Shown here in pieces: positions 1 to 41,434 of a stretch of DNA of 64,000 bases (the stretch's first letter is position 1; every line of letters starts with the position of its first letter). Source of the DNA: an uncultured Flavobacteriaceae bacterium (GTDB lineage: Bacteria > Bacteroidota > Bacteroidia > Flavobacteriales > Flavobacteriaceae). The position numbers and the translations under genes were made by a program. Below the pieces are notes generated by a model, which had not been told where the DNA came from, made no database searches, and was given only the letters and a program-made list of their open reading frames with translations. The DNA lies in NCBI GenBank assembly GCA_947494825.1, contig CANLWN010000007.1:124001-188000 (forward strand), read 5' to 3'.

Positions 1-535
1 TGTCAATATAGGGAACGGAGGTAATCTTACCCACCAACTCCAGCTCCAAACCGTTTTCCAGACGTGCTGCAATCAGCAACAGGGCCGAAATATATTGGCT
101 ACTGATGTTGGCGGGCAGGCTCACCTTTCGTTCCAGAAGTTGTTTTCCTTTGATCTGTATGGGAGGATACCCCTCATTTCTCACATAAGCAATCTCCGCT
201 CCCAAACTGCGAAGGGCATCTACGAGGACCTTTACCGGCCGCTCCGTCATGCGTTTGGAGCCGGTAAGCACCACGTCCCTGCCCTCTTGCGAGGCAAAAA
301 AGGCCGTTAAGAACCGCATGGCCGTTCCGGCATGGTGGATATCCACTTCTCCCCGATGGATCTGCAGTCCTTGCTGCATCACTTCCGAATCGTCCGAATT
401 GGAAAGGTTGTCAATGGTTATGTTAGGATATAGGGCTTGTAATAGCAACAGTCTATTAGACTCACTTTTGGAGCCTGTTATTTGTATGCGGGACCGTAAA
501 AGACTGTTTGGCGGAGCGGAAAGGTGTAATTTCAA
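1..535 (-). CDS. aroA: 3-phosphoshikimate 1-carboxyvinyltransferase (EPSP synthase), N-terminal part, cut by the window edge
   Basis: Sixth step of the shikimate pathway: joins PEP to shikimate-3-phosphate, in the cytoplasm. The minus-strand reading frame shows the family landmarks GSKSESNRLL (substrate-binding N-terminus), GTAMRFL and TGSKRMTERP, in the right order. No ATG lies between the upstream in-frame stop near 618 and these motifs. The best start is TTG at 535-533, giving MKLHLSAPP before the first conserved strand, the usual length of N-terminus in related proteins. About 178 codons are present; the C-terminal half lies beyond position 1. The 92-bp gap to the MazG-like gene upstream holds no other gene. 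It is separate from the Phe/Tyr operon at 7.8-11.9 kb, which uses its downstream product chorismate. The identity is firm; the start is inferred. Confidence 0.88.
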   Translation of the reverse strand, partial: MKLHLSAPPNSLLRSRIQITGSKSESNRLLLLQALYPNITIDNLSNSDDSEVMQQGLQIHRGEVDIHHAGTAMRFLTAFFASQEGRDVVLTGSKRMTERPVKVLVDALRSLGAEIAYVRNEGYPPIQIKGKQLLERKVSLPANISSQYISALLLIAARLENGLELELVGKITSVPYID

Positions 536-958: not shown

Positions 959-2980
959 TTAAATTTTGGATAAAACTACCTTTTCTGTCTCTTTTTCAAC
1001 GATTTTTTTATACAATTCTTTGATGCTGCCATAAGCCTGGACCGGGATGACCGCTTGGTTGATCTTGAAATCGGCCATAATCTGAAGCGTATTGGTATCC
1101 GGATTCAAAATTCTAAAGATGAAACTTCCCATGTTGTTTTCCAACGCAAGACGTAAGTCCTCGGGTTTGGATGTCACTGTATAGCCTTCCGGAATGGTTA
1201 TGTTTAGAATATATTTTTTTTGGCGCGGATAAGTAAAATCTATAGGATAATTACGTTCCTCCAATTTAAAGGGGTTTTCCTTGGTCGTATTGAAAAGCAA
1301 GGGCGAAAAATAAATCTTATCACCGATAATGTCCAACTGGTTTTCTGAATAAAAATCAAAACTCTCCACAATGGGTTTGCCCAGCACTTTACTATTATCG
1401 ACCTTATAATTCGAAATTTCCATTCCGGCACCGGTGTTTTCCAACCTTTCCAGATAATCCTCTTCGCTGACGTCATTATAGGTATTCCTGAAAAGATACG
1501 CGTTATAGTACGTTAACGACTTTCGAATTTTCCCTGATATATCACCGTTCACGTCCAGGTTTACGCTCATCATTTCAGTTGTAACGGAACGTTTCCCTGG
1601 AACCACGGACACAATGGAAGAACTTCCATTTTCCTTTATGATCCGACCGGACCAGTTCAGGGCCGATGTAGGCAATAGATTGGGTTCCGTATACTTATTG
1701 CAGGCATCCAATAAAATGGTCTTGTCTGCGATTTGGGCGGACGCGATTACATAGTTGAAACCCTCGCGCGTCGGAAAAAGCGGCACTCCGTTGTCCCGCG
1801 TGCTAATCAACACCGGATTCGCCGTCAACCCTGCCTCCCTGAGCATCGAAACCAAAATAAGGTTAATGTCGGCCACGTTTCCTGTCCTTTCTTCATATGC
1901 ATCCTTCACTCCCTTTTCGGCATATTTCCCAAAATAGCCATTCCAGTTCATGTGCCGTTGTACATGGGAAAAAACTGCCACCATCTTTTCAACATCACTG
2001 GACGCTCCAGCAAGAACAGCATTGAGCTGGTTTTTGAAAAACCTGGAATAGGTTAACTGCTTACCAAAGCTGTCACTGTTGTAAATGGTCTTCACCACTT
2101 TTTCCCAGGTAGTGGTAAAACTTTCCATAGGAGAATTTGGATACTTTACATATTGGAGCTCGTAATTGATGCTTGACCGGTAGTTGTTCATATTGTTTAC
2201 ATGAGGTTCCTTTTGTAAGGCCGGTACATCCCTCATGGTAAAGTTGGTCGTTTTTATAGTATAGTCAACACTGCTTGAACTATAGTATGATTTTCCAGTA
2301 TAGTCATCTTGGTCCTTGCGCTTTGTCTGGAAGTTTATCTTCCCCGATTTCGAACCGTATTTTGGGTTAATTCCCAAATATCCTTTCATGCTCGGCTTAA
2401 AGGCAAAATATTCCGGAATCGAGATGTTAATATGCTGCTGCTGTATGGGGATATCGTATTGCAGCACAATTTCGTCAATGGAATAAGCAAAAGGCGATAC
2501 AATTTTATATTCGTATTCCACAACGCTTCCCTCCTTCACATTGGGCATCGTGAACTTCTCTTCATTGTGGTACTTCGAGAGCGATTTGGAAAACATCTCT
2601 GAGCTCTTCAGTTTAGTCTTTACCACCTCACCATTTTCCAAAGTATACGTGAAGGCTTTAAGGCCGCTGAGGGATTCCCTGTCGCTCTTGCTTTTGTAAA
2701 GTCGCTCTGTAACCGTGGCAAATTTAAAGCCGTTTTTATTGAACAGTTTGGTACGCTCATGAACCCGCGTTATTACCTGAAATCCAACAGATTGTGCATA
2801 GGAATAGGAAACATCAACATCCCTATACAGCACTACGGCTGGTGCCGATGAATCCTTTGCATAAACACTTTCCATGAGTTCTTCTTTGGACACTTTTCCG
2901 AATTTTACCTCTTGTGCGGTCGTAATCAATACCAGGAACAGGCATATCCCAGTCAATCTAAATTGTGGTTTCCTCATCAT
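959..2980 (-). CDS. DUF3857 / transglutaminase-like secreted protein, apparently catalytically dead
   Basis: A 673-residue secreted protein with a signal peptide (MMRKPQFRLTGICLFLVLIT), an N-terminal DUF3857 region (about residues 40-230), a transglutaminase-core region (about 270-400) and a C-terminal beta-rich domain. I chose the double ATG at 2980 because it directly precedes the signal peptide and lies 22 bp after the stop of the upstream paralogue; the longer frame runs back into that gene. In the core, the position that holds the catalytic Cys in relatives (GDC or GxCxD) reads GNVADIN, and the following HV motif reads FNYVIAS, so both Cys and His appear lost while the LLDACN segment remains. 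It is probably a non-catalytic partner of the intact paralogue upstream. The substrate is unknown. Confidence 0.82.
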   Translation of the reverse strand: MMRKPQFRLTGICLFLVLITTAQEVKFGKVSKEELMESVYAKDSSAPAVVLYRDVDVSYSYAQSVGFQVITRVHERTKLFNKNGFKFATVTERLYKSKSDRESLSGLKAFTYTLENGEVVKTKLKSSEMFSKSLSKYHNEEKFTMPNVKEGSVVEYEYKIVSPFAYSIDEIVLQYDIPIQQQHINISIPEYFAFKPSMKGYLGINPKYGSKSGKINFQTKRKDQDDYTGKSYYSSSSVDYTIKTTNFTMRDVPALQKEPHVNNMNNYRSSINYELQYVKYPNSPMESFTTTWEKVVKTIYNSDSFGKQLTYSRFFKNQLNAVLAGASSDVEKMVAVFSHVQRHMNWNGYFGKYAEKGVKDAYEERTGNVADINLILVSMLREAGLTANPVLISTRDNGVPLFPTREGFNYVIASAQIADKTILLDACNKYTEPNLLPTSALNWSGRIIKENGSSSIVSVVPGKRSVTTEMMSVNLDVNGDISGKIRKSLTYYNAYLFRNTYNDVSEEDYLERLENTGAGMEISNYKVDNSKVLGKPIVESFDFYSENQLDIIGDKIYFSPLLFNTTKENPFKLEERNYPIDFTYPRQKKYILNITIPEGYTVTSKPEDLRLALENNMGSFIFRILNPDTNTLQIMADFKINQAVIPVQAYGSIKELYKKIVEKETEKVVLSKI

Positions 2981-7794: not shown

Positions 7795-8877
7795 CTAAGC
7801 CTTTATAATTTTCTCCTGATGATTTATGGACTCCTGGTGGATGGCCTTGAACATGCGCAATACGAATTCTTCACTGAGCCCATTGGACTCGCCTTCCAAG
7901 ATCATTTTGCCCAAAATAGCGTTCCAGCGGTTCGTCTGCAGCACAGCGACATTCCTTTGCTTTTTAAGCTCCCCGATACTGTCCGATATCTTCATGCGCT
8001 TGCCCAAAGTGTCGATCAATTGGTTGTCTATGATGTCTATCTGGGCCCTGAGATTGCTCAGCCTGCTATTGTATTCGGCTTCCTCATCCGTTTCCTTACG
8101 TATTCTAAGATCTTCCATGATTTGAACCAGTTTTTTAGGGGTTACCTGCTGTGCGGCATCACTCCATGCGTTGTCCGGATCCCAATGCGTTTCAATCATT
8201 AGGCCATCAAAATTTAAGTCCAATGCGGTCTGGGAAACATCGAAGATCATATTCCTTTTCCCGGTAATATGCGAGGGATCATTGATCAAGGGCAGGTCTG
8301 GGAACTTGGTCTGCAGTTCAATGGCCAGTTGCCACTCCGGAATATTTCGGTATTTGGTCTTCTCGTAAGTAGAGAACCCTCTGTGGATTACCCCCAGCTT
8401 TTTGATGTTTGCCGTATGGAGCCTTTCTATGGCCCCAAGCCACAAGGGAAGATCGGGATTTACCGGATTTTTTACCAGCACCACTTTATCCGTACCTTCC
8501 AGGGCATCAGCGATTTCTTGAACAATAAAGGGACTTACGGTAGAACGAGCACCGATCCAAAGCAGGTCTACATCGTGTTCCAATGCCAGATCCACATGGG
8601 CCCTATTGGCCACTTCGGTCGCGGTTTTTAAGCCCGTTTCTTCCTTTACCTTTTGCAGCCACTTCAACCCAATGGCGCCAACACCCTCAAAATTGCCTGG
8701 ACGGGTCCTGGGCTTCCATATTCCGGCCCGGTAGTAATTTACATCGGTGTCCTTAAGTTCTTGCGCAATGCCCAACACCTGTTCTTCCGTCTCTGCACTA
8801 CATGGCCCTGCGATTACCAATGGGTGGCTCAATGCCATATCGTCTAACCATGTCCTCAATTGTTTTGAATTTTTCAC
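7795..8877 (-). CDS. aroF: Bifunctional DAHP synthase (type I-beta) / chorismate mutase
   Basis: Condenses PEP and erythrose-4-phosphate to DAHP (first shikimate step), and its C-terminal AroQ domain converts chorismate to prephenate. Of 360 residues, about 1-255 form the DAHP synthase barrel (VIAGPCSAET, IWKPRTRPGNFEG, KNPVNPDLP, NDPSHITGKR) and about 265-360 the chorismate mutase (IDIIDNQLIDTLGKRMKISDSIGELK). The start is GTG at 8877, not ATG; relatives begin with the same ELRxWLDDM segment. It is last in pheA-aminotransferase-tyrA-aroF, 21 bp after tyrA. The fused mutase domain may also confer feedback inhibition by prephenate, as known in type I-beta enzymes. Confidence 0.95.
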   Translation of the reverse strand: MKNSKQLRTWLDDMALSHPLVIAGPCSAETEEQVLGIAQELKDTDVNYYRAGIWKPRTRPGNFEGVGAIGLKWLQKVKEETGLKTATEVANRAHVDLALEHDVDLLWIGARSTVSPFIVQEIADALEGTDKVVLVKNPVNPDLPLWLGAIERLHTANIKKLGVIHRGFSTYEKTKYRNIPEWQLAIELQTKFPDLPLINDPSHITGKRNMIFDVSQTALDLNFDGLMIETHWDPDNAWSDAAQQVTPKKLVQIMEDLRIRKETDEEAEYNSRLSNLRAQIDIIDNQLIDTLGKRMKISDSIGELKKQRNVAVLQTNRWNAILGKMILEGESNGLSEEFVLRMFKAIHQESINHQEKIIKA

Positions 8878-8898: not shown

Positions 8899-9762
8899 TT
8901 ATCTATTTTGATTTAACGGTATTCCCTTTAATATTTCCCTTATCTTATTGGTATTGTCCATTTCCTTATGAATGCCCTCAAAATTTTCGTCCAACAGCAT
9001 TTGCTTGAACTGCTGCAAATTTCTAATATATTCCTCCAGGGTCTCTACCACATTCTGTTTGTTTTGCTCAAAAATGGGCGTCCACATGTCCGGGGAGCTC
9101 TTGGCCAAGCGCACGGTACTTTCAAATCCGCTCCCGGCCATGTCAAAAATATCACGTTCGTTCTTTTCTTTCTCAATAACCGTCTTTCCCAACATAAAGG
9201 AGCTTATATGTGATAAATGCGACACGTAGGCTATGTGTTTATCGTGGGCCTCAGGATTCATGTACCGAATGCGCATCCCCAGTTGCTGAAACAGATGCAA
9301 GGCTTTTTCCTGTAATTTAAAGGCGGTTTTTTCTACTTCACAAATAATATTGGTCTTGCCTTCGTACAAGCCCTGTATAGCCGCCGAGGGGCCCGAAAAT
9401 TCCGTGCCGGAGATGGGATGGCACGCCAAAAAATTCCTGCGTTTGGGGTGGTCTTCCACGGCCTTGCAGACCTGGGATTTTGTGGAACCGGCATCGAATA
9501 CCACAGCACCGTGGTTAATCCCATCCAATATCCGGGGCAATTCGCTCACGAGGACATCAACCGGAATACTGACTACGACCACATCGGCCAAAGGCAAATC
9601 GGCGTAGCTAGATTTTAGGTCGATAAGGTTCAAGGCCATGGCTTGCTCCAGATGATCCTTATTGGTATCCACACCATAGATTTTGGCATTGGGGTACAAT
9701 TGCTTGATATCCTTTGCCAAAGAGCCCCCTATAAGTCCGATTCCTATTATAAATACGTTCAT
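8899..9762 (-). CDS. tyrA: Prephenate dehydrogenase
   Basis: A 287-residue NAD(P)-dependent enzyme that oxidatively decarboxylates prephenate to 4-hydroxyphenylpyruvate (tyrosine branch). It has the Rossmann motif MNVFIIGIGLIGGSLAKDI at the N-terminus, then CHPISGTEFSGP and the catalytic-His region DKHIAYVSHLSH, followed by a helical dimerisation domain. No C-terminal ACT domain is seen. ATG at 9762 lies 4 bp after the aminotransferase stop; a TTG at 9780 would overlap it and is less likely. Confidence 0.94.
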   Translation of the reverse strand: MNVFIIGIGLIGGSLAKDIKQLYPNAKIYGVDTNKDHLEQAMALNLIDLKSSYADLPLADVVVVSIPVDVLVSELPRILDGINHGAVVFDAGSTKSQVCKAVEDHPKRRNFLACHPISGTEFSGPSAAIQGLYEGKTNIICEVEKTAFKLQEKALHLFQQLGMRIRYMNPEAHDKHIAYVSHLSHISSFMLGKTVIEKEKNERDIFDMAGSGFESTVRLAKSSPDMWTPIFEQNKQNVVETLEEYIRNLQQFKQMLLDENFEGIHKEMDNTNKIREILKGIPLNQNR

Positions 9763-9766
9763 TTTT

Positions 9767-10912
9767 CTAAATTCTGTCAATGGCTTCCCTGATCTTATCC
9801 GTTGTTACACAAAGTGAAAACCGTACATATCCTTCCCCGTTGCTCCCGAAAATGGTTCCCGGCGCTATAAAAATGTCTTTTTGGTGCAGCAGTTCGTCAA
9901 TATATCGTTCGGCCGAAGGGAATCCTGCAGGCAGTTTGGCCCAAACGAACATCCCTACCGCATTTTTGTCATAAACACAGCCCAACTTATCTACCAGCGT
10001 AAACATGAGGTTCCTTCTAGCGCTATAAATGCTATCCAATTCATCAAACCAAGCCTTGCCACTTTGTAGCGCTGTAATGGCTCCCTTTTGGATTCCGTAG
10101 AACATGCCAGAGTCCATATTGCTCTTTACTTTTAGCACCGCCTGGATGTGCTCCGGACTTCCCAAAACCATGCCCACTCGCCAGCCGGCCATATTAAAGG
10201 TCTTGCTCAGGGAATTAAGTTCCAGGCATACGGCTTTGGCACCCGCTATTCCCAACAGACTCAGGGGGTTATCGGTCAACACAAAACTATAGGGATTGTC
10301 ATTGACCAACAGAATATCATGATGTCTGGCAAATTGGACCAAAGCACCAAGCTGGTCCGCCGTTGCTGTTGCGCCTGTAGGCATATGCGGATAACTTACC
10401 CACATAAGCTTTACTCGGGACAGGTCACGTTTTTGCAACGCCCGCAGGTCGGGAAACCAGTTGTCTTCGGCAAGTAGGTCGTAAGAACGCGGAACGCCAC
10501 CGATCAGTTTGGTTACCGATGTATAGGTGGGATAACCCGGGTTGGGAATCAGCACTTCATCACCCTCATTCAAAAAGGCCATGCTGATATGCATAATACC
10601 CTCCTTGGAGCCCATCAAGGGCAATATTTCCGAAACGGGATCTAAGGAAACCCCGAATTTTGCGTTGTAAAAATCGGCGATGGTCTTCCGCAATTCCGGT
10701 AATCCCTGGTAGCTTTGGTATTGATGTGCACCCTTATGGCTGACCGCATTTTGGATGGCCTCTATGACCTTGCCCGATGGGGCGAGGTCAGGGCTTCCAA
10801 TGCCCATATTGATGATAGGCTTGCCAGCGGCCGCCAAGGCACGTACTTCTCTCAATTTTTTGGAGAAATAATATTCTTCTACCGTATGAAGACGATCTGC
10901 TGTGCGTATCAT
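9767..10912 (-). CDS. Class I/II PLP aminotransferase, probably aromatic
   Basis: A 381-residue fold-type I aminotransferase. The PLP lysine lies in ELNSLSKTFNMAGWRVGM, and the phosphate-binding Arg in the same GWR. The N-terminus IINMGIGSPDLAPS and the SYPHMPTGATA segment (NPTGA variant) are typical of the aspartate/diaminopimelate aminotransferase group. Its place between pheA and tyrA, with a 4-bp overlap with pheA, argues that it transaminates phenylpyruvate, 4-hydroxyphenylpyruvate or prephenate. The substrate is inferred from context only. Confidence 0.9.
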   Translation of the reverse strand: MIRTADRLHTVEEYYFSKKLREVRALAAAGKPIINMGIGSPDLAPSGKVIEAIQNAVSHKGAHQYQSYQGLPELRKTIADFYNAKFGVSLDPVSEILPLMGSKEGIMHISMAFLNEGDEVLIPNPGYPTYTSVTKLIGGVPRSYDLLAEDNWFPDLRALQKRDLSRVKLMWVSYPHMPTGATATADQLGALVQFARHHDILLVNDNPYSFVLTDNPLSLLGIAGAKAVCLELNSLSKTFNMAGWRVGMVLGSPEHIQAVLKVKSNMDSGMFYGIQKGAITALQSGKAWFDELDSIYSARRNLMFTLVDKLGCVYDKNAVGMFVWAKLPAGFPSAERYIDELLHQKDIFIAPGTIFGSNGEGYVRFSLCVTTDKIREAIDRI

Positions 10913-11736
10913 AATCGTGCGTTTTTATATTCCCCAAGGATCTTAAATTCTTCCGCCATGATTTCCAAAAGGGCTTTCGCCTTCCTAAAACGCTCATAGG
11001 TCTCAAAGGTCACATCCACAAAAAAAGAGTATTTCCAGGGTGTTTCAATTACCGGAAGGGACTGTATTTTGGTAAGGTTCAGGTTACAATCGCTCATCAC
11101 ATTGAGCACGGCGGCCAGACTCCCCCTTTTATGATCGGTAATGAAGCGGAGCGAGGCTTTATTGATTTCCTTTTCCGGTAAGGCCTTGTTCCTTGTCTTT
11201 ATGATGATGAATCGGGTGGCATTGTTCTTAATGGTTTGTATTTCGGGTGCAATGATCCTTAAATCGTACAAATCGGCCGCCATTTGGGGCGCAATGGCCG
11301 CAATGTCGTTTAGTCCCTGTTCCTGGATCCTTCGGGCCGTCTCGGCAGTATCCACATCCTCGACCAATTTAATATGTGGATAGTCCTTAAAAAAATCCTT
11401 GCATTGCAACAGCGCCATAGGATGGGAGTGCACTTCCTTTATGTCCTGTATTTGCTGTCCGTTGGACACCATTAAGTTGTGGTGGATCTGCAAATAGTGT
11501 TCCCCGATAATGTGCAGATTGTTCCGTGAAATAAGGGCGTAATTGGGAATGATCGATCCCGCGATAGAATTTTCAATGGCCATAATGCCCTTGTCCGCGA
11601 CCCCCTGGAGCAGTTGATCTACCATCGCATCAAAGGACAGACATTCTACCAGGTCTACACCCTTCCCGAAATATTCCTTGGCCACCTGATGGTGGTTAGA
11701 TCCCTTTATCCCCTGTATGGCTATTCTTAAACCCAT
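10909..11736 (-). CDS. pheA: Prephenate dehydratase
   Basis: A 275-residue enzyme that converts prephenate to phenylpyruvate (phenylalanine branch). The N-terminal PDT domain (about 1-180) carries GIKGSNHHQVA, EDVDTAETARR and the catalytic TRFIII motif; a C-terminal ACT domain (about 195-275) contains RGSLAAVLNVMSDCNLNLTKIQS, the usual phenylalanine-sensing region. The ESRP motif of the family reads QSLP here. There is no chorismate mutase domain; that activity is fused to aroF. It is the first gene of the operon and lies directly after the leader-peptide attenuator at 11764-11891. Confidence 0.94.
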   Translation of the reverse strand: MGLRIAIQGIKGSNHHQVAKEYFGKGVDLVECLSFDAMVDQLLQGVADKGIMAIENSIAGSIIPNYALISRNNLHIIGEHYLQIHHNLMVSNGQQIQDIKEVHSHPMALLQCKDFFKDYPHIKLVEDVDTAETARRIQEQGLNDIAAIAPQMAADLYDLRIIAPEIQTIKNNATRFIIIKTRNKALPEKEINKASLRFITDHKRGSLAAVLNVMSDCNLNLTKIQSLPVIETPWKYSFFVDVTFETYERFRKAKALLEIMAEEFKILGEYKNARL

Positions 11737-11763
11737 TCTCTTTTCAAATGCAAAATCTTACAC

Positions 11764-11793
11764 AAAAAAAAAGTTCCGATTTTCACGGAACTT
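11764..11793 (-). terminator. Attenuator terminator upstream of pheA
   Basis: On the minus strand, AAGTTCCG, a 7-nt loop and CGGAACTT lead straight into a T-run (11764-11770), 27 nt after the leader stop and 28 nt before the pheA ATG. This is an intrinsic terminator inside the leader of the Phe/Tyr operon. Its 5' arm can instead pair with 11835-11827. Confidence 0.9.
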
Positions 11794-11835
11794 CACTCTA
11801 TTTATACCTTTTGAATATGCTAGAACAGTCCCGTA
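11784..11835 (-). promoter_or_regulatory. Antiterminator pairing of the Phe/Tyr attenuator
   Basis: UACGGGACU (11835-11827) can pair over nine positions (two G-U) with AGUUCCGUG (11792-11784), which includes the 5' arm of the terminator. The upstream arm lies inside the last codons of the leader ORF. A ribosome at the leader stop would cover it and let the terminator form; a ribosome stalled in the Phe/Tyr run would leave it free. The pairing was worked out by hand. Confidence 0.7.
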
Positions 11836-11891
11836 CCTCTCTTAAAAAAGAAGTAAAAATAAAAACCGTTCCAGAAATATTGCTTTATCAT
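11820..11891 (-). CDS. Phe/Tyr-rich leader peptide of the pheA operon
   Basis: A 23-codon ORF (ATG 11891, TAG 11820) just upstream of the attenuator terminator and pheA. It encodes seven Phe, three Tyr and one Trp; codons 10-16 read FYFYFFF. The composition matches the end products of the operon it precedes, the hallmark of ribosome-mediated attenuation. Starved ribosomes would stall in the run; ribosomes reaching the stop would mask the antiterminator arm. The start is preceded by an A-rich stretch, usual for this phylum. The peptide itself probably has no function beyond being translated. It is too short for ordinary ORF calling. Confidence 0.88.
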   Translation of the reverse strand: MIKQYFWNGFYFYFFFKRGTGLF

Positions 11892-11910
11892 TTTTTCACT
11901 TAAACTTAGG

Positions 11911-11940
11911 CTAAGGTAATTATTAAATTTAAAAATCAAA
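11911..11940 (-). promoter_or_regulatory. Candidate promoter of the pheA leader
   Basis: On the minus strand, TTTG (11940-11937), an 18-bp spacer and TACCTTAG (11918-11911) resemble the TTTG / TAnnTTTG promoter with one mismatch in the -7 box. The predicted start near 11904 leaves a short untranslated stretch before the leader ATG at 11891. Confidence 0.45.
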
Positions 11941-12035
11941 TTTTCTATACATCTTTTTTTGAATCTTTCGGATTAGGTATCATTCTTTGAGAATTCATTT
12001 TGAAAAATTGGGTTCTGTTAAGAATAATGAATTGG

Positions 12036-12065
12036 TTGCCAAGACTTCTTATTTGTTTACTTTTG
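12036..12065 (+). promoter_or_regulatory. gldA promoter (TTG-N19-TACTTTTG)
   Basis: TTG at 12036-12038 and TACTTTTG at 12058-12065 match the Bacteroidota -33/-7 consensus exactly with normal spacing. The expected transcription start near 12072 is about 11 bp before the chosen gldA ATG at 12083, which supports that start over a longer upstream frame. Confidence 0.6.
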
Positions 12066-12082
12066 ATGAAAATTTAGTATCC

Positions 12083-12976
12083 ATGTCCATAACGGTTCAA
12101 CACATCACTAAGGCATTTGGGGCACAAAAGGCGCTGGACGATATCTCCTTTACCATCAAAAAAGGGGAAATCGTGGGTTTTTTGGGACCTAACGGAGCGG
12201 GAAAATCCACGATGATGAAAATACTGACCACTTACAGTCGCGCAGATGAAGGTAGCGCAGCCGTAAATTCGTTCGATGTGGTCGGTGACAAAAGAAACGT
12301 TCAAAAAAGTGTGGGCTATCTGGCCGAACACAATCCATTATATCTGGACATGTATGTAAAGGAGTATTTGGGCTTTAATGCGGATGTCTATAAGTCCGAC
12401 AAGGGCCGCATCCAAAAAGTGATCGAACAGACCGGACTGGGCCCTGAAGCCCATAAAAAGATAGGGCAACTTTCCAAGGGGTACAGACAGCGTGTGGGCT
12501 TGGCAGCGGCCTTGTTACACGACCCCGAAGTACTGATATTGGATGAGCCCACCACAGGTTTGGATCCCAACCAACTATTGGAAATTCGAAAATTGATCAA
12601 GGAAATTGGCAAAGAAAAGACCATATTGCTCTCCACCCATATCATGAAGGAAGTGGAAGCGGTATGTGACCGCGTACTGATCATCAATAAGGGAAACCTC
12701 GTTGCGGACAAGAAACTTTCCGACCTCAGGGAGGAAGACGAACAGATTATCGAGGTGGAGTTCGATTATCGGGTGGAAGAGGTGTTGTTGCAGAAGCTGC
12801 CCCATGCCGAAAAAGTGAAAAATACGGGCGGTTTTGTCTATGAAATCACTTTCAATACACCAAAGGACATGCGGCCGGCGGTATTCGACTTTGCCCACGA
12901 TAACAAACTAAAGACCCTGGAGCTGAGTAGAAAAAACAAGAACCTGGAGAGTTTGTTTACCGAGTTGACCAATTAA
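12083..12976 (+). CDS. gldA: Gliding motility ABC transporter ATP-binding protein GldA
   Basis: A 297-residue ABC ATPase of the GldA type, which with membrane partners GldF and GldG is associated with flavobacterial gliding. Walker A GPNGAGKST (about residues 35-43), Q-loop region, signature LSKGYRQRVGLA, Walker B VLILDEPTTGLDP and H-loop LLSTHIMKEVE are all intact. A C-terminal domain of about 80 residues follows, as in GldA. The start ATG 12083 is placed next to the predicted promoter; the length equals that of known GldA. gldF and gldG are not adjacent. Distinguishing GldA from other DrrA/NatA-like ATPases rests on length and overall similarity to the flavobacterial protein. Confidence 0.9.
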   Translation: MSITVQHITKAFGAQKALDDISFTIKKGEIVGFLGPNGAGKSTMMKILTTYSRADEGSAAVNSFDVVGDKRNVQKSVGYLAEHNPLYLDMYVKEYLGFNADVYKSDKGRIQKVIEQTGLGPEAHKKIGQLSKGYRQRVGLAAALLHDPEVLILDEPTTGLDPNQLLEIRKLIKEIGKEKTILLSTHIMKEVEAVCDRVLIINKGNLVADKKLSDLREEDEQIIEVEFDYRVEEVLLQKLPHAEKVKNTGGFVYEITFNTPKDMRPAVFDFAHDNKLKTLELSRKNKNLESLFTELTN

Positions 12977-24387: not shown

Positions 24388-24545
24388 GCTGTTTTTTGTA
24401 TTAGCGATAATCCCATGCATGCTCCATTCCCTCATTTTGCAAGGGAAAACATCATAAAAATGCCCCCTCCGCAAGCAATGTGGTGAACTGGTATTCATAG
24501 GGTATCAAGTAAGGGAAAGGTCAAGACCGGAACGTCTTGCTTTTT

Positions 24546-24662
24546 GTTATCTATTCCCAAATCGGTCGGGATAGAATGTAGCACCTTCTTTATCCAAATG
24601 GGTTTGTGAAAAAGGGTTGCTAAGGCTTCAACGGGTCTATTCCCTCCACCTTTCTTGATAAC
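24546..24662 (-). ncRNA. SAM-I (S-box) riboswitch upstream of metH-metF
   Basis: The minus strand reads as a canonical S-box: P1 strands GTTATC (24662-24657) and GATAAC (24551-24546), followed by AAGAAAGGTGGAGGGAATAG, the GAAGCCTTAGCAACC core, GGTGCTA and the ATTCTATCCCGAC segment. About 117 nt. It binds SAM and should shut off the metH-metH-metF unit when SAM is abundant. Downstream, CAAGAC/GTCTTG (24522-24539) forms a small hairpin without a good T-run, so control may be translational or use another fold. The same core recurs at 39816-39934. Confidence 0.95.
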
Positions 24663-24689
24663 GTTTTCAATTTTGAAATGAACTGAGTG

Positions 24690-39809: not shown

Positions 39810-39815
39810 AGATAT

Positions 39816-39934
39816 GTTATCTATTCCCATATACCGGGATAGAATTTAGCACCTTCTCCGTTCCCGAAAGCTATCGGTAAACAAAGGGTTGCTAAGGCTT
39901 CATAGGGTCTATTCCCTCCACCTTTCTTGATAAC
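39816..39934 (-). ncRNA. SAM-I (S-box) riboswitch upstream of metY-metX/thrA-metZ
   Basis: The minus strand carries the S-box core: P1 strands GTTATC (39934-39929) and GATAAC (39821-39816), AAGAAAGGTGGAGGGAATAG, a GAAGCCTTAGCAACC core and GGTGCTA, followed by ATTCTATCCCGG. The P3 arm differs from the metH copy (GATAGCTTTCGGG region), as expected for independent copies of one aptamer class. It places the whole homocysteine-forming operon under SAM control. Confidence 0.95.
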
Positions 39935-39964
39935 CATTCAATATGTGTTTGAACTTTAACGCTA

Positions 39965-41269: not shown

Positions 41270-41345
41270 ATACCACTGTTCTTTAGTGTTGAGGGATTTG
41301 ACGAAAAAATTTAAAGAAGTTTACTAGTATGGATATATTCTGTAG

Positions 41346-41420
41346 TAACTGCTTTAGCATTTTTTGGTTCCCTGTTCATGCCCGGGCCAAAGAGGTTGCA
41401 ATCAGTCAAATCCATCCTCT
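41346..41420 (-). ncRNA. Candidate SAM-II riboswitch in the metK leader
   Basis: On the minus strand: P1 AGAGG (41420-41416) with CCTCT (41395-41391) encloses a loop GGATTTGACTGATTGCAA, matching the SAM-II loop pattern GATTT...TTGCA. After an inserted hairpin (TTTGGCCC ... GGGAACCAAA) comes AATGCTAAAG, the conserved 3' core, then CAGTTA (41351-41346), which pairs with loop TGACTG (41408-41403) as the H-type pseudoknot should. SAM-II is known mainly from Alphaproteobacteria and some Bacteroidota. The aptamer ends 77 nt before the metK ATG, farther than in classical cases. Confidence 0.75.
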
Positions 41421-41434
41421 ACACAATTGGTGCA

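Follow-up and report, generated by a model that had tools for sequence, protein, structure and literature searches.

A leader peptide with mixed phenylalanine and tyrosine codons very probably controls the pheA operon of Flavobacteriaceae by attenuation

The pheA operon of an uncultured Flavobacteriaceae bacterium is very likely controlled by a classical ribosome-mediated attenuator that responds to the charging of both tRNA-Phe and tRNA-Tyr and governs the whole Phe/Tyr operon. We analyzed a stretch of 64,000 nucleotides of this genome (hereafter the window) and compared its pheA locus with those of other Bacteroidota. The elements of the switch, their geometry, their conservation, and the covariation of both helices can be read directly from these DNAs. 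The same device recurs widely among the relatives, and in it the ribosome itself very probably switches the genes on when Phe or Tyr becomes short.

Results and discussion

Organization of the pheA locus

The minus strand of the interval 11940-11764 contains, in this order ahead of pheA, a Bacteroidota-type promoter, a leader ORF of 23 codons, and an intrinsic terminator (Table 1). The initial annotation had proposed such a leader, with FYFYFFF at codons 10-16, and we recovered it at 11891-11820 (-). Its stop codon and the end of the terminator stem lie, respectively, 83 and 33 nt from the start of pheA (11736). The four-gene operon proposed downstream (pheA, aminotransferase, tyrA, DAHP synthase/chorismate mutase) is borne out by Pfam. 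As listed, the first three ORFs overlap one another by 4 and 14 nt, and 21 nt separate the third from the fourth, with a TTG start listed for tyrA and a GTG start for the DAHP synthase/chorismate mutase gene. The upstream neighbour, an ABC transporter ORF at 11987-12976 (+), is divergent and runs away from pheA. Hence, the terminator cannot serve an upstream gene, a possibility that we ruled out; it lies downstream of the operon's own promoter and ahead of pheA. The host had been called a flavobacterium, which agrees with the family and not with the genus Flavobacterium, as the nearest named PheA relatives (77-81% identity) are from Flagellimonas, Maribacter, Allomuricauda, and an uncultured Flavobacteriaceae genome. 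Elsewhere, the window contains two SAM (S-box) riboswitches and one SAM-II riboswitch, at 24544-24664 (-), 39814-39936 (-), and 41344-41425 (-).

Table 1. Features of the pheA locus, in coordinates of the window.
Feature	Coordinates	Strand	Basis
Promoter, Bacteroidota sigma-A type, TTTG-N18-TACCTTAG	11911-11940; -7 box 11918-11911	-	Sequence and consensus
Leader ORF, 23 codons, MIKQYFWNGFYFYFFFKRGTGLF, stop TAG	11820-11891	-	Sequence; F/Y leader in 89/90 family loci
Regulatory codons 10-16, FYFYFFF	11844-11864	-	Sequence
Segment 1, protector strand; ribosome-free, pairs with the 3' part of segment 2 and bases beyond	11861-11874	-	Minimum-energy folds
Segment 2, antiterminator strand UACGGGACU in the last leader codons	11827-11835	-	Duplex energy, covariation
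Segment 3, terminator 5' arm, common to terminator and antiterminator	11786-11794	-	Folds, covariation
Segment 4, terminator 3' arm	11770-11778	-	Folds, covariation
Terminator U-run, overlapping the 3' end of the stem	11764-11772	-	Sequence
pheA, prephenate dehydratase with ACT region	10909-11736	-	Pfam PF00800 (PDT) E 2e-57; PF01842 (ACT) below cut-off
Class I/II aminotransferase	9767-10912	-	Pfam PF00155 (Aminotran_1_2) E 2.7e-60
tyrA, prephenate dehydrogenase	8899-9780	-	NCBIfam NF006307 above cut-off; PF02153/PF20463 (PDH_N/PDH_C)
DAHP synthase fused to chorismate mutase	7795-8877	-	PF00793 (DAHP_synth_1) and PF01817 (CM_2)

The promoter had been described as plausible. Sites of the sigma-70 style occur at chance level (2 found versus 1.6 expected in shuffles), and we therefore used the Bacteroidota promoter consensus, whose -7 element is quoted as TAnnTTTG in the text of a transcriptome study of F. 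psychrophilum (PMC9723704). The element TTTG-N18-TACCTTAG at 11940-11911 fits this TTG/TAnnTTTG type, so that the promoter itself stands and the sigma-70 style does not. The 70 nt 5' of the leader ATG include the -7 box TANNTTNG in 86 of 89 loci of the family, versus 12.8 expected from shuffles, and in 57 of the 89 the box is accompanied by TTG at 17-22 nt, versus 1.1 expected.

The proposed switch

The intrinsic terminator with its T-run was confirmed, with a stem (11794-11786 / 11778-11770) of -10.8 kcal/mol. The strand at the end of the leader, UACGGGACU, had been said to form nine pairs with the 5' arm of the terminator, and it does so with AGUUCCGUG, i.e., the arm and two loop bases, two of the nine pairs being G-U wobbles. 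This duplex has an energy of -12.8 kcal/mol, which is equalled by 1 of 200 shuffles. The leader alone folds at -20.6 kcal/mol, and the fold of the whole leader has z = -2.58, with 2 of 200 shuffles equally good. The pairings of segments 1-2, 2-3, and 3-4 are those of a classical four-segment switch, in which terminator and antiterminator exclude each other, as initially claimed, because they have segment 3 in common; both helices show compensatory changes among relatives (see below).

Transcription would start a few bases 5' of the leader ORF, and the leader would be translated from its A-rich start, which lacks a Shine-Dalgarno sequence. If Phe or Tyr were short, the ribosome would stall in FYFYFFF and leave segment 2 free to pair with the emerging 5' arm of the terminator, and RNA polymerase would read into pheA. 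If both were plentiful, the ribosome would reach the stop codon and cover segment 2, and the terminator would form. It would also form if there were no translation, since segments 1 and 2 would then pair with each other. We infer that termination occurs in vivo, that the ribosome stalls, that the switch responds to the two amino acids, and that translation is coupled to transcription in these bacteria.

To represent the ribosome, we masked the RNA under it and folded the remainder, with the 3' edge placed 16 nt from the P site; the footprint is that of E. coli. With the A site at codons 9-15 the model favours the antiterminator, and from codon 16 to the stop it favours the terminator. At equilibrium, an A site at codons 5-8 (Y5, F6, and W7 included) or at the last F (codon 16) gives the terminator, so not every aromatic codon would act, although at codons 5-8 eight antiterminator pairs form before segment 4 exists. 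Across 89 loci of the family, a ribosome at the first or middle F/Y codon never masks more than 25% of segment 2, and one at the stop codon masks at least 75% of it in 88, in agreement with the early suggestion that a ribosome at the stop codon would hide the antiterminator arm.

Conservation in Flavobacteriaceae

A PheA was found in 178 of 199 genomes of the family, each from a different genus, and 90 of these 178 loci were analyzed (the 30 best and 60 picked down the list). Of these 90, 89 have a leader rich in Phe and Tyr with a T-tailed hairpin behind it that begins 20-53 nt past the leader stop; in one (L024), the leader lies around 390 nt upstream of pheA. The single locus of the 90 in which we found no F/Y leader is L070. 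By eye, copies of a near-identical unit of around 110 nt with a CCCGCC...GGCGGG hairpin replace the leader upstream of its pheA. Another locus (L029) is flanked by two Flavo-1 RNAs (RF01705) on opposite strands, at 2707-2784 (+) and 94-169 (-).

The second set comprised 80 named genomes (Flagellimonas, Maribacter, Arenibacter, Zobellia, Cellulophaga, Flavobacterium, and others), the best of 577 relatives found. All 80 have a leader, a terminator, and the aminotransferase and tyrA genes downstream. This count depends on the cut-off, as all 80 pass at 5 F/Y/W in 8 codons and only 46 at 6 in 8, when most of the genus Flavobacterium is missed. An antiterminator at p ≤ 0.05 relative to shuffles was identified in 82 of the 89 family loci (at ≤ 1% in 55 of them) and in 77 of the 80 named loci; seven and three loci, respectively, miss the 5% mark. 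The two sets partly overlap (e.g., L202 and G094), and their counts are thus not to be summed. The initial annotation had proposed that the idea would fail if neither the short ORF nor the alternative pairing were conserved in relatives. It clearly withstood this test: leader and terminator occur together in 89/90 and 80/80 loci, the alternative pairing at the frequencies above, and both helices covary.

The ORF is far from what chance provides. We considered ATG ORFs of 12-34 codons and counted Phe and Tyr per 7 codons. Among 5000 dinucleotide shuffles of the upstream region of the window, none has an ATG ORF with 7/7 F/Y and six have one with at least 6/7. In the family, 7/7 is reached at 38 of 90 loci, and at none of the 90 reverse strands, 90 stretches farther upstream, or 9000 dinucleotide shuffles. 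At 5/7, the values are 87/90 for the loci, 3/90 for the reverse strands, 0/90 farther upstream, and 197/9000 for the shuffles. Within the runs, 374 of 392 codons are Phe or Tyr, without TTA or TTG; the 56 loci used for this count were pre-picked for at least 6/7 F/Y, and we therefore do not count it as evidence. In the start context of the 89 family leaders, A occupies position -3 in 81% and position -6 in 63%. Such an A-rich context was reported for Flavobacterium johnsoniae, in a phylum without Shine-Dalgarno sequences, in the text of PMC6847099.

Covariation and spacing

The 3' end of the leader and the terminator 5' arm pair with a mean energy of -12.3 kcal/mol in the native loci, -9.9 kcal/mol when the arms are swapped between loci, and -6.0 kcal/mol when the leader part is shuffled. 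The native pairing is better in only 5684 of 7832 swaps, and part of the covariation is therefore shared ancestry; we attribute the other swaps to loci with the same stem. Position 5 of the stem illustrates how the three strands (leader/5' arm/3' arm) change jointly: in 44 loci a C faces G on both sides (GCG), in 42 a T faces a leader A, with A as its partner in the 3' arm in 22 (ATA) and G in 20 (ATG), and three loci have other combinations.

We aligned 32 sequences, namely the window and 31 hand-picked loci of the 56 distinct named ones; the 25 omitted are near-duplicates and rows of the genus Flavobacterium, which have a different stem and spacing. In the terminator, 100% of the cells are paired and six of eight pairs changed on both sides, as many as in none of 500 shuffles. 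In the antiterminator, 94.6% of the cells are paired and four of seven pairs changed on both sides (0/500 shuffles). Kinship among sequences may beat such shuffles without any structure, a caveat that is answered in part by slid controls, with zero to two pairs changed on both sides, and by the comparison beyond the family.

The distance from the F/Y run to the arm (51.0 nt, sd 3.4) is tighter than that from the stop codon to the arm (25.3 nt, sd 5.2). In six leaders that stop early (L029, L056, L083, L087, L088, L090), the antiterminator strand extends beyond the stop codon, where a ribosome that terminates would still mask it, given the coverage of at least 75% in 88 of the 89 loci overall. 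We also considered that the ORF encodes a functional small protein and rejected it, because the C-terminus tracks the RNA pairing, the stop moves between clades, and the spacing between the F/Y run and the stem is constant. For genome annotation, the leader is most likely a regulatory ORF rather than a small protein gene.

Distribution beyond the family

Outside the family, we searched 55 PheA loci: 15 belong to the same order but to other families, 25 to further families of the class, and 15 to the phylum's other classes. Leaders with at least 5 F/Y/W in 8 codons are found in 29 of them (9/15, 16/25, and 4/15, respectively), and many of the stems are unrelated in sequence: AAGCCTCG, ATCCCGCT, ACCGCTTTCAG, GACCGCTC, GTCCCGGC. 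A significant antiterminator (p ≤ 0.05 relative to shuffles) is present in 26 of these 29 leaders, counting the better one at the locus with two leaders (L345); those above 0.05 are L098 (0.062), L128 (0.064), and L126. In the swap test, 19 of 25 rows were used, omitting L126, whose terminator is 198 nt from the chosen ORF, and the family members L106-L110. In these 19 loci the native pairing averages -15.6, versus -9.6 with swapped arms. Two loci from two other families of the class (L345 and L126) have two F/Y-rich leader ORFs in series before pheA, with antiterminator p values of 0.002 and 0.184 for the first and second leader of L345, and 0.374 and 0.228 for those of L126.

No leader was identified in 26 of the 55 loci (L096, L101-L105, L111-L113, L120, L123, L124, L127, L129, L333-L344). 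At 11 of these (L104, L105, L111, L112, L335, L336, L338-L340, L343, L344), a same-strand open frame of at least around 140 codons either overlaps pheA or stops no more than 45 nt from it. These pheA genes are probably internal to an operon, where a leader is not to be expected. At the other 15, we found no such explanation for the missing leader. Taken together, the comparison of these sequences strongly favours an attenuation mechanism.

Alternative explanations

The leader of E. coli pheL, as far as is known, senses phenylalanine only, and the one described here could do the same, its Tyr codons being tolerated as look-alikes of Phe codons. This would fit the excess of Phe over Tyr codons (means of 5.7 and 3.5 per leader) and the single base that separates the two kinds of codon. 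We nevertheless consider it unlikely, since Tyr accompanies Phe in all 89 family leaders, with at least two Tyr in 88, and since it occurs at least twice in every leader of a second set of 25, five of them from family members. Moreover, the operon makes both amino acids, and tyrA lies two genes past pheA in all 80 named loci. The presence of Phe and Tyr in all family leaders thus fits the products of the operon and supports dual sensing, short of proof.

Two further explanations leave ribosome stalling aside, and both seem to us far less probable. In the text of PMC9723704, the 5' element of pheA appears among the structured regulatory RNAs, without a named signal. Such an element, or a plain terminator, might bind a protein or ligand, and the short ORF would then be incidental. 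Scans at gathering and low thresholds gave no Rfam family at its cut-off on the leader. T-boxes and riboswitches, searched upstream of pheA, had no gathering-level match, and the interval 11600-12100 has only matches below the cut-off (e.g., SAM-II with 16.2 bits versus 44). An incidental ORF is also hard to reconcile with an F/Y content far beyond chance, a translation start context, and a spacing locked to the F/Y run, which makes this explanation highly improbable. Slightly more remote still is the idea that the leader mainly boosts pheA translation by reinitiation, or acts via Rho, without control of intrinsic termination. Reinitiation at leader genes is proposed in the text of PMC4833913, with a peak at 11-14 bp in Bacteroidetes. 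The distance from leader stop to pheA (83 nt here, 57-177 nt in the 80 named loci, 60 to around 390 nt in the family set) is far from this range, and an intrinsic-type terminator intervenes in all 89 leader-bearing loci of the family.

Other amino acid leaders in Bacteroidota

The genome of the window also has a His leader, MRNNTTHHHFYSCAQAR, before hisG and a Trp leader, MKRRTVNTWWWKNLRQTS, before trpE. All 18 hisG loci examined have a leader with 3 or more His in a stretch of 7 codons, and an arm-pairing like that of pheA was significant (p ≤ 0.05) in 13 of the 16 with a terminator, the test omitting two of the 18 rows in which the wrong ORF had been picked (L220 and L228). For trpE, we used 19 of 30 loci, taking the rest, which are weak matches, as related enzymes. 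All 19 have a leader with at least 2 Trp in 7 codons, including one with a TTG start and one of only 8 codons. The pheA arm-pairing test does not fit them (1/19 at p ≤ 0.05). In several of these trp leaders (L240, from the genome of the window, and L229-L247), the candidate antiterminator strand reads GTGA or GCGA and is matched by the terminator loop, TCAC or TCGC, and not by the 5' arm. By eye, strand and loop appear to change together, which would be a switch geometry unlike that of pheA and his.

Short ORFs rich in Thr and Ile are found before thrA in the genome of the window (L309) and at L311, L312, L317, L319, and L322, most ending in TPLG, TPWG, or similar. Nine ORFs were picked among 15 thr loci, some of these ORFs being doubtful, and no T-tailed hairpin was found behind any of the nine. 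Upstream of ilvD, short ORFs of the VVV or IVVV type hint at branched-chain leaders (L263, L265, L267, L271, L273). By eye, a Val/Ile leader is convincing at 5 of the 15 ilvD loci examined, from 20 fetched, and L327 is a possible further case; we found no ATG-started Val/Ile leader before ilvD in the window's own genome.

Considering these observations, we lean, with some reserve, towards leader-peptide attenuation being ancient and phylum-wide in Bacteroidota. Genomes would carry His, Trp, and Phe+Tyr leaders without Shine-Dalgarno sequences, perhaps with Thr and Ile/Val ones, the Phe/Tyr switch would predate the diversification of the class, and its long upkeep would mean that translation trails transcription closely enough to decide termination. 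The switch would provide a testable rule for the control of aromatic amino acids in a large phylum without Shine-Dalgarno sequences in its mRNAs. Since it needs a ribosome close behind RNA polymerase, it also makes transcription-translation coupling in Bacteroidota directly testable.

Comparison with known systems

Leader-peptide attenuation of pheA in enterobacteria is textbook knowledge, and the enterobacterial Phe leader has, to our knowledge, Phe and no Tyr. The pheL attenuator of these bacteria (Rfam RF01859, Phe_leader) resembles the element described here in having a short Phe-rich ORF, a protector, an antiterminator, and a terminator before pheA, with the same logic. In contrast to it, the leader of the window has a mixed Phe/Tyr run, a start without a Shine-Dalgarno sequence, a promoter of the TAnnTTTG type, and a four-gene operon that includes tyrA and the DAHP synthase/chorismate mutase gene. 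RF01859 scores 25 bits at this leader (E 0.06), versus a gathering score of 55, and has no gathering-level match in the 13 pheA loci of relatives scanned.

Ribosome attenuation had been described as much better documented in Proteobacteria. This needs some revision, as the closest prior work is not confined to that phylum and lies in Bacteroidetes itself (RF01692 and the text of PMC9723704). The Bacteroidete tryptophan peptide leader RNA (Bacteroid-trp, RF01692), listed by Weinberg 2010 (PMC2864571), is a leader-peptide element of the same phylum. The trpE leader in the genome of the window scores 62.6 bits with it (cut-off 49), and two of the three other trp loci scanned match as well. RF01692 differs from the pheA leader in its Trp codons (WWW) and in a terminator 5' arm without the pheA-style pairing to the leader end (1/19 loci), and it has no match at the pheA leader at gathering or low threshold.

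In the text of PMC7366714, short ORFs reminiscent of leader peptides are described in 5' UTRs of Bacteroides. The F. psychrophilum transcriptome (PMC9723704, 2021) provided, according to its text, strong clues for leader-peptide attenuation before amino acid operons, and structured pheA and hisG 5' elements, present in other Flavobacteriaceae and without Rfam matches. Its pheA element is very probably the same as the one described here. That text gives no anatomy, Phe/Tyr leader, antiterminator, or spread beyond the family; its Table S7 or Appendix D9 may. We found no description of a Phe/Tyr leader in Bacteroidetes in the literature searched, outside which lie most subscription journals (Lopatovskaya 2010 may list attenuators of Bacteroidetes). 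The kind of switch is itself known; as far as our searches show, what is new is a leader that mixes Phe with Tyr codons, together with its anatomy and its occurrence outside the family.
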